Shown piece after piece: positions 58,550-63,409 of a DNA stretch of 64,000 bases. The stretch comes from a virus. Numbering within the stretch: the first letter of the stretch is position 1; each line of letters opens with the position of its first letter. A program made the position numbers and the translations under genes. The stretch lies in the IMG/VR virus record IMGVR_UViG_3300025154_000005, positions 28,304 through 92,303 of that record; one strand, 5' to 3'. The notes under the pieces are model-generated. The model had not been told where the DNA came from, made no database searches, and worked only from the letters and a program-made list of their open reading frames with translations.

Positions 58550-59029
58550 TTATTCATAATATCTATATAAACTATGTACATTATGTTCCTTTTCCTGACT
58601 ACCATCATAAATTACAAAAGTAAGAACTATTTGAGAAAATGAATCAATTCTATCAATTTCGTTATCAATTGTATTTCTGGTATTTCCAGAGTAAAAAGAG
58701 TCATCTAAGAATATAAAGTCTTTGTTTCCAAAGTCAGTATTATAAAATTCCGGAATATTTCCCTTTCTAACACCTCCAGTTACTATAAATACATTATTAA
58801 AAGTATTGTATAATTCTTTCCCGTAGTTTTGTATTAAGGCCATTCCAAAATTTCCACTTAGTACTAAGTTATACTTTTTAAAGTCCATATTACTTGCATA
58901 AACAAATTTCATAAATTCTCCTAATATATTTCTATCTCCTCGTATAATATAATCTAGTGCATTAAAGAAAGCTTCTCCTTCCTTATGCGTTTTAAGTATC
59001 TCACTTATCTTTTCATTTAGTCTTTCCAT
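58550..59029 (-). CDS. phosphoribosyltransferase-like protein
   Basis: The PRPP-binding signature of type I phosphoribosyltransferases is present as FIFLDDSFYSGNT (D109, D110, S114, G115, T117), preceded by alternating strands and helices as in that fold (VFIVTGGVRKG). At 159 residues it is slightly short, like small nucleobase or regulatory PRTases. The substrate cannot be told from sequence. It overlaps the radical SAM gene by 13 bases, so the two are probably made together. It ends at the shared bidirectional terminator. Confidence 0.65.
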   Translation of the reverse strand: MERLNEKISEILKTHKEGEAFFNALDYIIRGDRNILGEFMKFVYASNMDFKKYNLVLSGNFGMALIQNYGKELYNTFNNVFIVTGGVRKGNIPEFYNTDFGNKDFIFLDDSFYSGNTRNTIDNEIDRIDSFSQIVLTFVIYDGSQEKEHNVHSLYRYYE

Positions 59030-59538
59030 AAAATATGCAATCGTTTAAATTCTTCATTATCTGGTAATGGACAATTCTCTATCCATTCAATATTATCCTT
59101 AACTTTCCAAAGAGAATCCGTATTCTTATAGGATATACCTTTGAACACATTTAATCTTAAAGATTTATCAGGCATATTTGACAAAAATTTAACTTTCCTT
59201 GCAAACTCATTAAATCTTGTAAAAAGTTCAGAATCATTTTTATCGTGTAAAGTTACTGTGATGCCGTCAGTAATTGATATAAGATGTGCTACGTTCGTAA
59301 AACTACTCATATTAGCAGTATATACATAGATTTTAGCATCTGTAACAAGTCTTAATCCCTTAATTAGTTCAAATAGTTTACCAGGAAATTTAAGAGGTTC
59401 TCCACCTGTTATAATAATTTCTTTATAATCAAATCTTTTTGTTATTGGTAGATTTGGTAAATCATAATCTTTATTACAACATCCTTCACAACTACGTGGG
59501 CATTCATCAGTAACTAATAATCTTAAAGTTTTCTTCAT
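59017..59538 (-). CDS. short radical SAM protein
   Basis: The [4Fe-4S] motif C-x3-C-x2-C is CPRSCEGC (C13, C17, C20). The SAM-binding GGEP motif is TGGEPL (residues 44-49). At 173 residues the barrel is minimal, like QueE-type or activating-enzyme-type radical SAM proteins rather than full-length ones. No second cluster motif is evident. It shares its 3' end with the PRTase-like gene and adjoins the 69-residue basic gene on its 5' side (one-base overlap), so a three-gene unit is likely. Possible tasks are base modification or activation of a partner enzyme; the substrate is unknown. Confidence 0.8.
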   Translation of the reverse strand: MKKTLRLLVTDECPRSCEGCCNKDYDLPNLPITKRFDYKEIIITGGEPLKFPGKLFELIKGLRLVTDAKIYVYTANMSSFTNVAHLISITDGITVTLHDKNDSELFTRFNEFARKVKFLSNMPDKSLRLNVFKGISYKNTDSLWKVKDNIEWIENCPLPDNEEFKRLHILWKD

Positions 59539-59747
59539 TATTTTCTCATACTTATTAATTTATCATTTTCATTTCGAGGAAAGAATTTAAACTCACATAT
59601 ATTATATTGATTAAATATCTTTCTATACCAATTGCCTTTAGAAAAGCTAAACATAGATTTAACTCTCTGTCTAACCTTTCTATTGGCTAATTGTTTACTT
59701 CCTCTGTTGTAATCCGTGAATATAGGATATTTATAACTTCTACTCAT
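59538..59747 (-). CDS. small basic protein, 69 aa
   Basis: This strongly basic protein (SKQLANRKVRQRVKSMFSFSKG) has aromatic residues and a C-terminal FFPRNENDK. It overlaps the RNA ligase gene by 8 bases and the radical SAM gene by one base. The charge suggests it binds RNA or DNA, perhaps as a helper of its neighbours. No family is recognised. Confidence 0.55.
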   Translation of the reverse strand: MSRSYKYPIFTDYNRGSKQLANRKVRQRVKSMFSFSKGNWYRKIFNQYNICEFKFFPRNENDKLISMRK

Positions 59748-60855
59748 ATTTAAGTAAAAAATCTGGATTAATCACCTTAAATGAAAGTAACTTCTTACCA
59801 TTCTCAATGCATCTAACCACAATACCTTCTCTGGGAATATCTGCTAATACAGATTTATATTTACTAAACTCAACTAGTTCTTGTACAGACGAACCTAATT
59901 TTAATAACTTATCAGTGCCTAAGAAGGGAACACTTTCTAAATCGTATTTAATACAAAATTTAGCTATTTCTTCAAAGTTATAGTGGTAATTCTTTTCATG
60001 ATCTATAATGTTGAATACCCAAAATGAGGGTTCCTTAACACCATATTTATTACCTTGTACACTTGTATCACCTTGTTCACCTTGAATAGTTAATGTAGGA
60101 TTTTCACGTAGAATTTGTTCAATGTTATACTTCTTAGCAATCTTCCAATATAGACTATTCTTGTCATTATTAACGAGGTTCCTACTGCATACTACAAACT
60201 TAAACTTCTTAGGTAAGAATTTGCCAATTATAGGAGTGGTATTAGGTATCATTTTACCAGTAAATGTTACACTTTGATAATCAATTTTCTCAGTAATATA
60301 AACTTCCTTATCTGCAAATTGTTGTAATACTTGAGGAATATTTTGAATTCTTTCTTCATCGGTTTTACTTACCCAAAATGGAAATCCTTCTTTTTGCTTT
60401 CTACTAAGGAACAATCTTCTATACCAAGAATATCTTTTCATAAACTTAGTAAGTTTATTCTGATTAATTTCAATTTTACTAATTTCTTCTCTTTCAGAAG
60501 GAGATAAATATTTAATAATCCCTAGCATTTCTGTAACATCTAATCCAACTTCTAATTTTATAGGTTGTGTTAAATATTTATTAATAGGTATTACTAAACC
60601 CTGACTAACTTGTCCTTTAAGTTTAATAGTTCTAATTCTAAATTTTCTATCTCTAAGAAATTCATATTCTGGTTTCTCTGGCATAATAGAATCTACTTCG
60701 CAATAAATAACCTTATCACCTATTTTAAAATTATCTTTTTTAGCGATTACACATTCCCACCCAAGAATTCCACAAACTTCTATTTTATCTGCGCCTTCTA
60801 TAGGTTTAATCCAATCTATAATTTCTATATGTGCTAATTTTCTTGTTTCGTCCAT
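59740..60855 (-). CDS. Rnl5-like RNA ligase
   Basis: The N-terminal 90 residues (KLAHIEIIDWIKPIEGADKI, WECVIAKKDNFKIGDKVIY, CEVDSIMP) are the OB-like domain typical of Deinococcus-type RNA ligase (Rnl5). The nucleotidyltransferase part has motif I as TEKIDYQSVTF with K190 the likely AMP-accepting lysine; Tyr replaces the usual Gly of K-x-D-G. Motif IV is EGIVVR (343-348), and motif V has the lysine-bearing end SFKVINPDFLLKY (K360 and K369). The length of 371 residues fits the family. Such ligases seal nicks in RNA, including repair of cleaved tRNA. Confidence 0.8.
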   Translation of the reverse strand: MDETRKLAHIEIIDWIKPIEGADKIEVCGILGWECVIAKKDNFKIGDKVIYCEVDSIMPEKPEYEFLRDRKFRIRTIKLKGQVSQGLVIPINKYLTQPIKLEVGLDVTEMLGIIKYLSPSEREEISKIEINQNKLTKFMKRYSWYRRLFLSRKQKEGFPFWVSKTDEERIQNIPQVLQQFADKEVYITEKIDYQSVTFTGKMIPNTTPIIGKFLPKKFKFVVCSRNLVNNDKNSLYWKIAKKYNIEQILRENPTLTIQGEQGDTSVQGNKYGVKEPSFWVFNIIDHEKNYHYNFEEIAKFCIKYDLESVPFLGTDKLLKLGSSVQELVEFSKYKSVLADIPREGIVVRCIENGKKLLSFKVINPDFLLKYE

Positions 60856-60870
60856 ATTATTGTATTATGT

Positions 60871-61167
60871 TTATAATTTCTGTTCATCTTCTCTTACATT
60901 TGGGGCACAATCTAAATATATCCATACCCAGCCACGATCTACCATCTTTTTACCAAGTTTGGTAATCTTTCTAACATGTTCCTTAGCCCATTCTTGCCAT
61001 TCATCATGTTGCTTCTGAGTTACTGAATACTTTTGATAGAAATCTCTAGCATGATTACTTGGATTATCCTTCCATTCTGGATTGTGTTCCAAAACTTTTG
61101 TTAAATTAGTATTGTGATATTTATCTAACCACCAATTTACTAAATCATCTGGATTAACCTTTTTCAT
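60871..61167 (-). CDS. hypothetical helical protein, 98 aa
   Basis: The protein is rich in Trp, His and Asn (NWWLDKYHNTNLT, HNPEWKDNPSNHARDFYQKYSVTQKQHDEW) and almost entirely helical. Proteins with this pattern turn up as hypotheticals in Bacteroidetes phages. It overlaps the metallophosphoesterase gene by 14 bases. The function is unknown. Confidence 0.5.
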   Translation of the reverse strand: MKKVNPDDLVNWWLDKYHNTNLTKVLEHNPEWKDNPSNHARDFYQKYSVTQKQHDEWQEWAKEHVRKITKLGKKMVDRGWVWIYLDCAPNVREDEQKL

Positions 61168-61753
61168 CTCTTAATAATTGTTTAGTAATTATTACCTTAA
61201 TTTGCTCATAAGATATAGGTTTAAAATCATTAGCATCTACGCCTATATCGTATCTCATAGGTTTAAATGATAGAATTTCACTTGCTGTAGATAATGGACC
61301 AGAGTGAATATGTCCAAATAAATGAACTGCTCTTCTAGTCCAATATTCACATGGATAATGTGTAATATGAAATCGCATTCTACCATCTTCAAGTTCATCA
61401 TCAGCAACTTCAAAATCAAGTGCATCTGAAGTATGATATAGAGCATGTTGAACTATTAGTCTATCTAACCTATTTTGATAATCATGGTTACCGTATACCA
61501 ACCACATTCTACCATTCAATCTGGATATTAGATTATTAATCACTTCCAAATTACCAGAATGAATAAAATCTCCTGCAATTATTATATCATCATCTTCTTG
61601 TAATAACTTATTCCAGTTTTTAATTAATTGTTCATTCATTTCTTGAACATCTTTAAAAGGGCGATTACAGTATTTGATGATATTGTCATGGCAAAAATGA
61701 AAATCTGCTCCGAACCATAATTTATCTTTATTAAACTTATATTTAATTTTCAT
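61154..61753 (-). CDS. calcineurin-like metallophosphoesterase
   Basis: All main motifs of the family are present: DFH (D17, H19), GDF (D62), GNHD (N89, H90), HYPCEYW and GHIHSG. The 199-residue length fits small bacterial and phage phosphoesterases of the YfcE or YmdB kind. The substrate may be a phosphodiester or nucleotide. Neighbouring RNA ligase and MazG-like genes suggest RNA-end or nucleotide processing; a 2'-3' phosphatase role is possible but unproven. Confidence 0.8.
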   Translation of the reverse strand: MKIKYKFNKDKLWFGADFHFCHDNIIKYCNRPFKDVQEMNEQLIKNWNKLLQEDDDIIIAGDFIHSGNLEVINNLISRLNGRMWLVYGNHDYQNRLDRLIVQHALYHTSDALDFEVADDELEDGRMRFHITHYPCEYWTRRAVHLFGHIHSGPLSTASEILSFKPMRYDIGVDANDFKPISYEQIKVIITKQLLRDEKG

Positions 61754-62279: not shown

Positions 62280-62651
62280 TTATCTTCCTTTCTTATTATA
62301 CCACTTGATAAATTCGATTACTGCTTCCCATGTAGCCTGTATTTTAGTCTCTATTGTACAATATTTTTCATAATCCTTATGTAAACCTATGTAACAGGAC
62401 TCGTCTGAAATTTCAACCAATACATCTCCATCATATAAATTCTCAATCTTCTCAACTACTGGCATTAACCAATCCCAAGAAAAATTATATCTAAGATTAG
62501 TTATAACTCCATTTACATCATACATAGGTTCTCCAACAAACATTCCTTTTTCTAATCTCTCTTTATCAATTTCTTTAAAAGATTTGTTTTCTAGAATACC
62601 CATAAACTCAGCAATTAGTTTATCATTTTCTTTAATTTCTGTATCTGTCAT
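62280..62651 (-). CDS. hypothetical protein common in Bacteroidetes phages, 123 aa
   Basis: The layout 'LIAEFMG ... YNFSWDWLMPVVEKIE ... TWEAVIEFIKWYN' recurs in uncharacterised proteins of Bacteroidetes phages and mobile elements as I remember them. The protein is helical at both ends with a beta part in the middle. The function is unknown. Its start overlaps the phosphatase stop by one base. Confidence 0.6.
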   Translation of the reverse strand: MTDTEIKENDKLIAEFMGILENKSFKEIDKERLEKGMFVGEPMYDVNGVITNLRYNFSWDWLMPVVEKIENLYDGDVLVEISDESCYIGLHKDYEKYCTIETKIQATWEAVIEFIKWYNKKGR

Positions 62652-63409
62652 TATCTTCCTTTCTCTTCAGGGTACAAAGTTTGTACTAAATTTGATTGGA
62701 AGTATTCCTTTGTATCTACGTTCATTAATGTTAATTTTCCTTCATAACCTGCACCTGTATCCATTGCTATTAGATTGGATGCAAATATAGGTTTATCAGT
62801 ATTCTCATATTTATTATTAAAGTATTTTGCTGCTCCAGTAGTTGTATGTCCAACATAGATTTCATCGTAGTCAGGAAATCTTTCTAATGTTGATTCGGGA
62901 GTAAATTTTGTCTTAATACTTTCATTAAATCTTTGCCATTGTAAAGCTGTTTGAAACATATGTCTATCCCAAATCATATTATCCTCATTCTCTTCTTCAA
63001 TTGGTTTATGCCAATTATATCCACCATGAATAAATAATTTGTTATTTTCAATATAGTAGTAGTTGGATTTGGAAAATAGTAATTCAGCTATATCATCGCT
63101 TACATTATCAGGATGATAATTAAAACTTTTAAGTGTTTTAATACCACCCTGTTTTGTCCATATTTCAGGCATCCTTCTTCCGCCACTTTCCAACCAATCC
63201 ATAAAAAACTTGTCATGATTTCCAATGATATATATAAGATTATTAATCTTAAGCAATGTTTCAAATGTTTCCTTTACTTCTGAAAAGCCATCACATACAT
63301 CTCCTAGACATATTAGTTTATCCTTTTTATAGTCAAATTTAGCACGTTCCAATACTTGTACTAGTGCTTTATTTGCTCCGTGAGGATCTGCTGTTGTAAA
63401 TGTTTTCAT
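62651..63409 (-). CDS. lambda-type Ser/Thr protein phosphatase-like metallophosphoesterase
   Basis: The PP2A-superfamily motifs are in order: DPHG (D8, H10), GDVCDG (D37, D40), GNHD (N64, H65), HGGYNWH and GHTTTG. At 252 residues it is close to the size of lambda phosphatase (221) plus a short extension. It could dephosphorylate proteins or act on nucleotides. It lies 9 bases from the DNA ligase fragment gene. This is the second metallophosphoesterase in the right arm. Confidence 0.8.
   Translation of the reverse strand: MKTFTTADPHGANKALVQVLERAKFDYKKDKLICLGDVCDGFSEVKETFETLLKINNLIYIIGNHDKFFMDWLESGGRRMPEIWTKQGGIKTLKSFNYHPDNVSDDIAELLFSKSNYYYIENNKLFIHGGYNWHKPIEEENEDNMIWDRHMFQTALQWQRFNESIKTKFTPESTLERFPDYDEIYVGHTTTGAAKYFNNKYENTDKPIFASNLIAMDTGAGYEGKLTLMNVDTKEYFQSNLVQTLYPEEKGR

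Follow-up and report, generated by a model that had tools for sequence, protein, structure and literature searches.

An RNA ligase, a radical SAM protein and a phosphoribosyltransferase in one gene run of a distant crAss-like phage: possible accessories of phage RNA repair

The stretch of DNA analysed here (the window, 64,000 nucleotides) comprises bases 28304-92303 of a 92,303-bp virus contig. The portal protein, large terminase, stabilisation protein, vWA protein and helicase of this contig match those of the crAss-like phage PhiCrAssBcn13, and the contig is therefore regarded as a distant crAss-like phage. A packed minus-strand run, convergent with the last virion gene, begins with an ATP-dependent DNA ligase fragment, followed by a NinI-like metallophosphoesterase of the serine/threonine phosphatase type (62651..63409, minus strand), two small open reading frames (ORFs), MazG, a calcineurin-like phosphoesterase (61154..61753, minus), a 98-aa ORF and an RNA ligase (59740..60855, minus). 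The last three genes are a basic ORF of 69 aa (59538..59747, minus), a minimal single-domain radical SAM (rSAM) gene of 173 aa (59017..59538, minus) and a phosphoribosyltransferase (PRTase) family gene of 159 aa (58550..59029, minus). These three, with the motifs LDDSFYSGNT, CPRSCEGC and TGGEP, are present exactly as the original prediction had placed them; the RNA ligase, the fourth gene of the run, was absent from it.

The rSAM and PRTase genes overlap by 13 bases (59017-59029), the rSAM start and the stop of the 69-aa ORF have one base in common, and the RNA ligase stop overlaps the start of the 69-aa ORF by 8 bases. The first two junctions agree with the earlier description, which took them as a sign that the genes are coupled. 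That was an over-reading: of the 63 same-strand (minus) junctions in the contig, 21 are overlaps, in 12 of which at least 10 bases are shared, and the 13-base overlap is thus ordinary. Both enzymes have homologues of 23-52% identity in dozens of phages, dN/dS among their close relatives is 0.06-0.27, indicative of purifying selection, and their folds are predicted with confidence; the two ORFs are therefore genes and not chance. A homologue search with the 69-aa ORF was empty, which makes it the weakest of the three as a gene, although it could be a real small gene.

The RNA ligase combines an N-terminal OB domain with an RNA_ligase domain and matches the Pfam families PHA02142 (6.7e-28, 97.4 bits) and RNA_ligase (3.5e-17, 63.5 bits) well above their cut-offs of 27. 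Its closest solved relative is the RNA ligase of Naegleria gruberi (3e-32), and it is assigned to that type (Rnl5). Elsewhere, at L042:9538-11499, an RNA-ligase-like ORF is broken by an intein-like insertion.

Profile scans of IMG/VR for the rSAM protein returned 59, 44 and 80 mutually overlapping loci, from which 55 distinct members were aligned. Residues C13, C17, C20, C21, N22, G45, G46, E47, G92, W152 and E162 are invariant in all 55. The window protein contains the motifs CPRSCEGCC-N, TGGEP, YT, DGIT-TLH and W-VK-NI-W--CPLP--E, giving a cluster motif CxxxCxxCCN, and the characteristic C-terminal motif of the family is WxVKxxxWIKDCPLPxxE. Its model is a compact single-domain barrel with a pLDDT of 94.4; with CxxxCxxC and GGE retained and a partial TIM barrel, the protein belongs to the radical SAM superfamily. 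Radical_SAM Pfam matches were obtained for 25 members (best 2.9e-11), and the family corresponds to PHROG 31524, to which no function is assigned. The best PDB matches to the model were viperin-like proteins, BlsE and MoaA, at E values of at least 1e-3 and TM scores of about 0.5, with no close solved relative among them, and the best viral structure matches were phage proteins of equal size. A scan of 84,980 genomes, one per species, with a 12-row alignment as profile found only ten relatives, in Bacteroidales, Clostridia and anaerobe archaeal bins. Nearly all of these are anaerobe lineages, and several of the ten sit amid recognisable phage genes; thus, the family is one of phage enzymes of anaerobes. 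The protein belongs to a phage-only family of stand-alone radical enzymes and is probably active, and its description as a minimal radical SAM protein is confirmed by the model and the invariant motifs. Two relatives have unusual surroundings. In the huge-phage contig L057 (151-7299), the member is a 446-aa ORF much extended at its C-terminus, and its neighbours include an EF-G-like GTPase, an RNA ligase and genes for the tRNAs Asn, Tyr, Asp and Val. In another crAss-like contig (L011:3524-5066), the run ahead of the rSAM has nucleoside-deoxyribosyltransferase-like and caspase-like genes.

The PRTase loci in IMG/VR were found by a profile scan, a single-sequence scan having given nothing, and 39 members were aligned. 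Invariant in all of them are D109, D110, S111, G115 and T117 of the PRPP loop, together with G59, G85 and Y141. The window protein has the loop FIFLDDSFYSGNT, which fits the type I pattern of a hydrophobic residue followed by DD-x4-G-x-T within a PRTase fold, and a C-terminal SLYRYY motif. Its model (pLDDT 91.7) matched OPRT, APRT, HGPRT and PurR in Foldseek at E values of about 1e-6. No member reached the cut-off of any curated PRTase subfamily profile, and only weak family matches to HGPRTase were seen. The PRTase-CE immune effector (PF24390) was considered and rejected, with 16.1 bits against a gathering threshold of 27 and weak matches in only three of the 39 members. As judged from alignment and model, the protein is a predicted PRPP-binding type I enzyme of a second phage-only family, and the intact loop and type I fold bear out the class, PRTase-like, that it had been given. 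In one contig (L088), a gene of this family, grouping with those of huge phages, adjoins a second, different rSAM: a 426-aa MoaA/viperin-like protein (L088:4652-5932) with C-terminal Cys/Gly-rich repeats and a PADLOC pVip match of 1.7e-17, which ends 9 bases ahead of the PRTase gene.

The two families are rarely found together. A PRTase of this family was found in 0 of 49 other rSAM-encoding records searched whole, a search that lacked its own positive control; searched locally with a profile, the loci do yield the known pairs. Later scans of 20-kb neighbourhoods placed such a PRTase near the rSAM in crAss001 only. Conversely, an rSAM of this family occurs in four of 38 PRTase records: crAss001, G005, G003 and the 735-kb phage LR756501. 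The order in crAss001 relatives is PNK, HAD, PRTase, Zn-ribbon, gp57, rSAM, HicA and ThyX, which places the pair two genes apart in crAss001, where the PRTase is gp59 and the rSAM gp56; a single HAD gene separates PRTase and rSAM in G005, and the distance grows to about 36 kb in G003 and about 95 kb in LR756501. In cr106_1, the rSAM is kept and the PRTase is absent. The two families co-occur in crAss-like phages and, beyond these, only in one huge phage, where the genes are unlinked. An rSAM tree, made to ask whether the pair had been assembled independently, puts the window branch between the crAss group and the remainder, and the window and crAss001 rSAMs may have a single origin (branch support 94/76).

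Both genes have decayed in one lineage, that of the plaque-forming phages PhiCrAssBcn14/15/16/18 (L016, L117-L119). In these phages, the PRTase carries a frameshift. A deletion has removed the HicA core and all but the first residues of the rSAM, and thereby fuses the rSAM start to the C-terminal part of HicA. At least one laboratory host can therefore be infected without either gene intact. These phages are also without TROVE and SPFH genes; as a correlate, TROVE is missing too from Bcn22 and Bcn23, which retain rSAM and PRTase. In the same four phages, ThyX, RNR and DnaB are also split. Coming from one lineage, the joint decay hints weakly at coupling and could reflect either shared function or shared relaxation.

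Evidence on the surroundings of the rSAM concerns RNA ligases. In LR756501, which is unrelated to the window phage, the rSAM lies directly downstream of the same ligase type as in the window. The rSAM of L057 is sister to that of LR756501, but its adjoining ligase is of a different class; in both phages an EF-G-like GTPase gene adjoins the rSAM. Since these related huge phages differ in ligase class, the ligase was swapped and the rSAM retained. When 46 whole rSAM records were searched for RtcB and RNA_ligase, 12 contained an RNA ligase and 34 contained none, and the rSAM therefore does not depend on a ligase. The distances from the rSAM to the nearest ligase in the 12 records were 0.2, 0.4, 0.7, 1.2, 1.4, 3.1, 3.1, 3.3, 6.9, 7.1, 8.9 and 15.7 kb. 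In a proximity test that was framed after two cases had been seen, and is thus partly post hoc and based on small numbers, five of the 12 ligases lay within 1.5 kb of the rSAM, against a mean of 0.74 under uniform random placement (P = 0.0006). Eight lay within 5 kb against 1.8 expected, a count reached in 0 of 20,000 draws. Limiting placement to the half-genome around the ligase gave P values of 0.008-0.01 for both distances. The ligases near rSAM belong to unrelated classes, namely OB-type, short PF09414 and RtcB. A control gene in the same records, DnaB helicase, was within 5 kb of the ligase in 0 of 5 cases; metallophosphoesterases were within 5 kb of ligases in four of six records, and part of the proximity signal may therefore reflect clustering of nucleic-acid genes. 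Replication in 32 further contigs yielded one ligase only, an RtcB 0.6 kb from the rSAM.

The PRTase, in turn, adjoins RNA end-healing genes in several phages. It is accompanied by PNK and HAD genes in crAss001 relatives, by PNK in L073, L074 and L071, and by PNK3P and PNK in L076 and L079. In huge phages, a HAD gene matching the Swiss-army-knife (SAK) RNA-repair family (2e-25) overlaps the PRTase gene. A HAD gene lies within 300 bp at six of 35 PRTase loci, two of which are crAss001 copies, as against one of 58 rSAM loci. Beyond the crAss-like and huge phages, RNA-repair neighbours are missing from the majority of PRTase loci. SAK and PNK-type HAD phosphatases that stand alone have been described in jumbo phages as enzymes of RNA repair (PMC7824862). 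A longer run occurs in huge phages at L013:619-7234 (also in L101 and L104), with an AsnRS-like gene, a RimK-type ATP-grasp gene, two tandem PRTases, one of them much extended at the C-terminus, and a SAK HAD; it resembles a small biosynthetic or RNA-repair cluster.

The reading favoured here, with a probability of about 0.38, is that a phage RNA-repair neighbourhood is partly contained in the window, and that the rSAM and the PRTase were recruited to it independently as accessories and not as successive steps. The RNA ligase would head this neighbourhood, and each enzyme would have joined phage RNA repair or maintenance separately. We infer that such accessories would most likely maintain the tRNA of host or phage in a usable state while host defence cleaves RNA. 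The rSAM would use a [4Fe-4S] cluster and SAM to generate a 5'-deoxyadenosyl radical, whose target could be either the damaged RNA, at a nucleotide or an end group, or a protein in the repair complex. The PRTase would form nucleotides from PRPP, or run in the opposite direction and break them down, to supply or clear a base, and in several phages a HAD phosphatase would act after it. A stronger form of this proposal, that the rSAM is a true part of RNA repair or tRNA protection that acts by radical chemistry on RNA which is damaged or targeted by host defence, assisted by the PRPP-dependent enzyme in crAss-like and huge phages, is considered unlikely; if true, it would amount to radical-based RNA repair against host RNA-cleaving immunity. 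As to the roles originally suggested, the RNA-repair neighbourhood lends some support to those in tRNA modification and anti-defence, and none to hypermodification of DNA.

crAss-like phages dominate the human gut virome, and the function of most of their early genes is untested. Should either enzyme act on RNA, it would represent a new chemical step in phage RNA repair, likely one that counters host RNases. Even otherwise, two orphan families are set apart from their public mis-annotations as HxsC-like protein and orotate or hypoxanthine PRTase.

Nearly as likely as the RNA-repair accessory reading is that the genes are chance neighbours, the PRTase being a nucleobase salvage enzyme (base + PRPP to NMP), the rSAM having an unrelated role and the vicinity of the ligase being accidental packing. 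Genes are tightly packed throughout the genome, the pair is not conserved, and ThyX, dUTPase or RNR lies nearby in crAss001. The proximity of the PRTase fold to OPRT, APRT, HGPRT and PurR, with the weak HGPRTase matches, also points towards salvage, but all members of the family score under the salvage-family cut-offs. Accidental packing is further opposed by the occurrence of unrelated ligase classes near the rSAM beyond chance, even under the modular null.

It is improbable, at around one chance in ten, that the PRTase and a phosphatase form a module making a nucleoside-like signal or decoy, whose product the rSAM may decorate. In Ter systems, the synthesis of a nucleoside-like signal has been ascribed to PRTase and HAD pairs (PMC7824862), and both the excess of HAD-fold phosphatases directly beside the PRTase relative to the rSAM and the huge-phage run with its AsnRS-like, RimK-type ATP-grasp, PRTase and HAD genes would fit such a module. 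However, the HADs of known class are of RNA-repair types (SAK and PNK3P), no HAD-type gene was seen beside the window PRTase, and no Ter genes were seen among the neighbours.

The original prediction, in which ribosylation and radical remodelling are two steps of one pathway, now appears less likely again. It would account for the adjacency of the pair in the window and its closeness in G005 and crAss001, for the presence of both genes among the few conserved genes that decayed in PhiCrAssBcn14/15/16/18, and for a possible common origin of the window and crAss001 rSAMs. Against it stand the narrow co-occurrence, unlinked in the one huge phage, and the cr106_1 rSAM without a PRTase; the decay, moreover, is that of a single lineage also without TROVE and SPFH. 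The co-occurrence check thus went against a single pathway (0 of 49 rSAM records, four of 38 PRTase records). The accompanying statement that no phage pathway with this pair has been described stands: no paper joining crAss-like phages, radical SAM and PRTase was found among the papers searched, and the text of the crAss001 paper does not discuss the two genes.

That the rSAM is a known type, whether NrdG or another glycyl-radical activase, QueE, an HxsC maturase or viperin, is very improbable: weak profile matches exist to HxsC (52 of 55 members), MoaA, NrdG and viperin, and crAss001 gp56 is annotated as HxsC-like in public records, but scores to all these profiles are far under their cut-offs. 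For HxsC (TIGR03977, an equivalog profile), the window protein scores 15.7 bits against a cut-off of 267.9. The likeness is limited to the N-terminal cluster region; the window protein is about 120 aa shorter, and both an HxsA-type repeat protein and a second rSAM are absent from the contig, in which a search for H-x-S repeat ORFs found none and one for CxxxCxxC ORFs found a single one. Viperin (pVip) is disfavoured by the lack of a PADLOC hit, by NCBIfam viperin matches that are weak and limited to five of 55 members, and by size (173 aa against about 260-300 aa).

The rSAM resembles NrdG and QueE in size, in its CxxxCxGCxN-type cluster motif and in TGGEP. It differs in its own C-terminal motif, and NrdD and QueC are absent from most carriers. 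With respect to phage-encoded partners only, the glycyl-radical domain (PF01228) was found in 0 of 26 rSAM records and NRDD (PF13597) exceeded its cut-off in one of 26, in a phage that has a separate NrdG-like protein. The QueE profile is matched weakly by four of 55 members, and QueC occurs in one of 27 carriers and is absent from the window contig. QueE, like the NrdG-like protein, coexists with the rSAM as a separate gene: phage L007 encodes QueC, QueD and QueE besides its rSAM-family member. Queuosine, named at the outset as a pathway into which the enzymes might fall, is therefore excluded as the role of the rSAM. The cluster in that phage (L007:2481-6753) is of the deazaguanine type, with the rSAM-family member preceding QueC, QueD and QueE and a different PRTase-like gene following them.

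The PRTase shares its fold and PRPP loop with the type I enzymes OPRT, APRT, HGPRT and PyrR/PurR, from which its family differs in having its own motifs (SGxFG, GGLR, YDGS and SLYRYY) and in falling below the cut-offs of the named subfamilies. The RNA ligase has the same OB and ligase domains as Naegleria gruberi Rnl5, of which it is a predicted phage homologue. Among phage RNA-repair sets, such as T4 Pnkp/Rnl1-type systems and the ligase, PNK and HAD genes of jumbo phages (PMC7824862), none was found described with a radical SAM protein or a PRTase. The window run also differs from these in that no PNK is recognised nearby and its phosphatases are metallophosphoesterases; like them, it has an RNA ligase, and in the relatives of the window phage PNK, PNK3P and SAK-HAD genes adjoin the PRTase.
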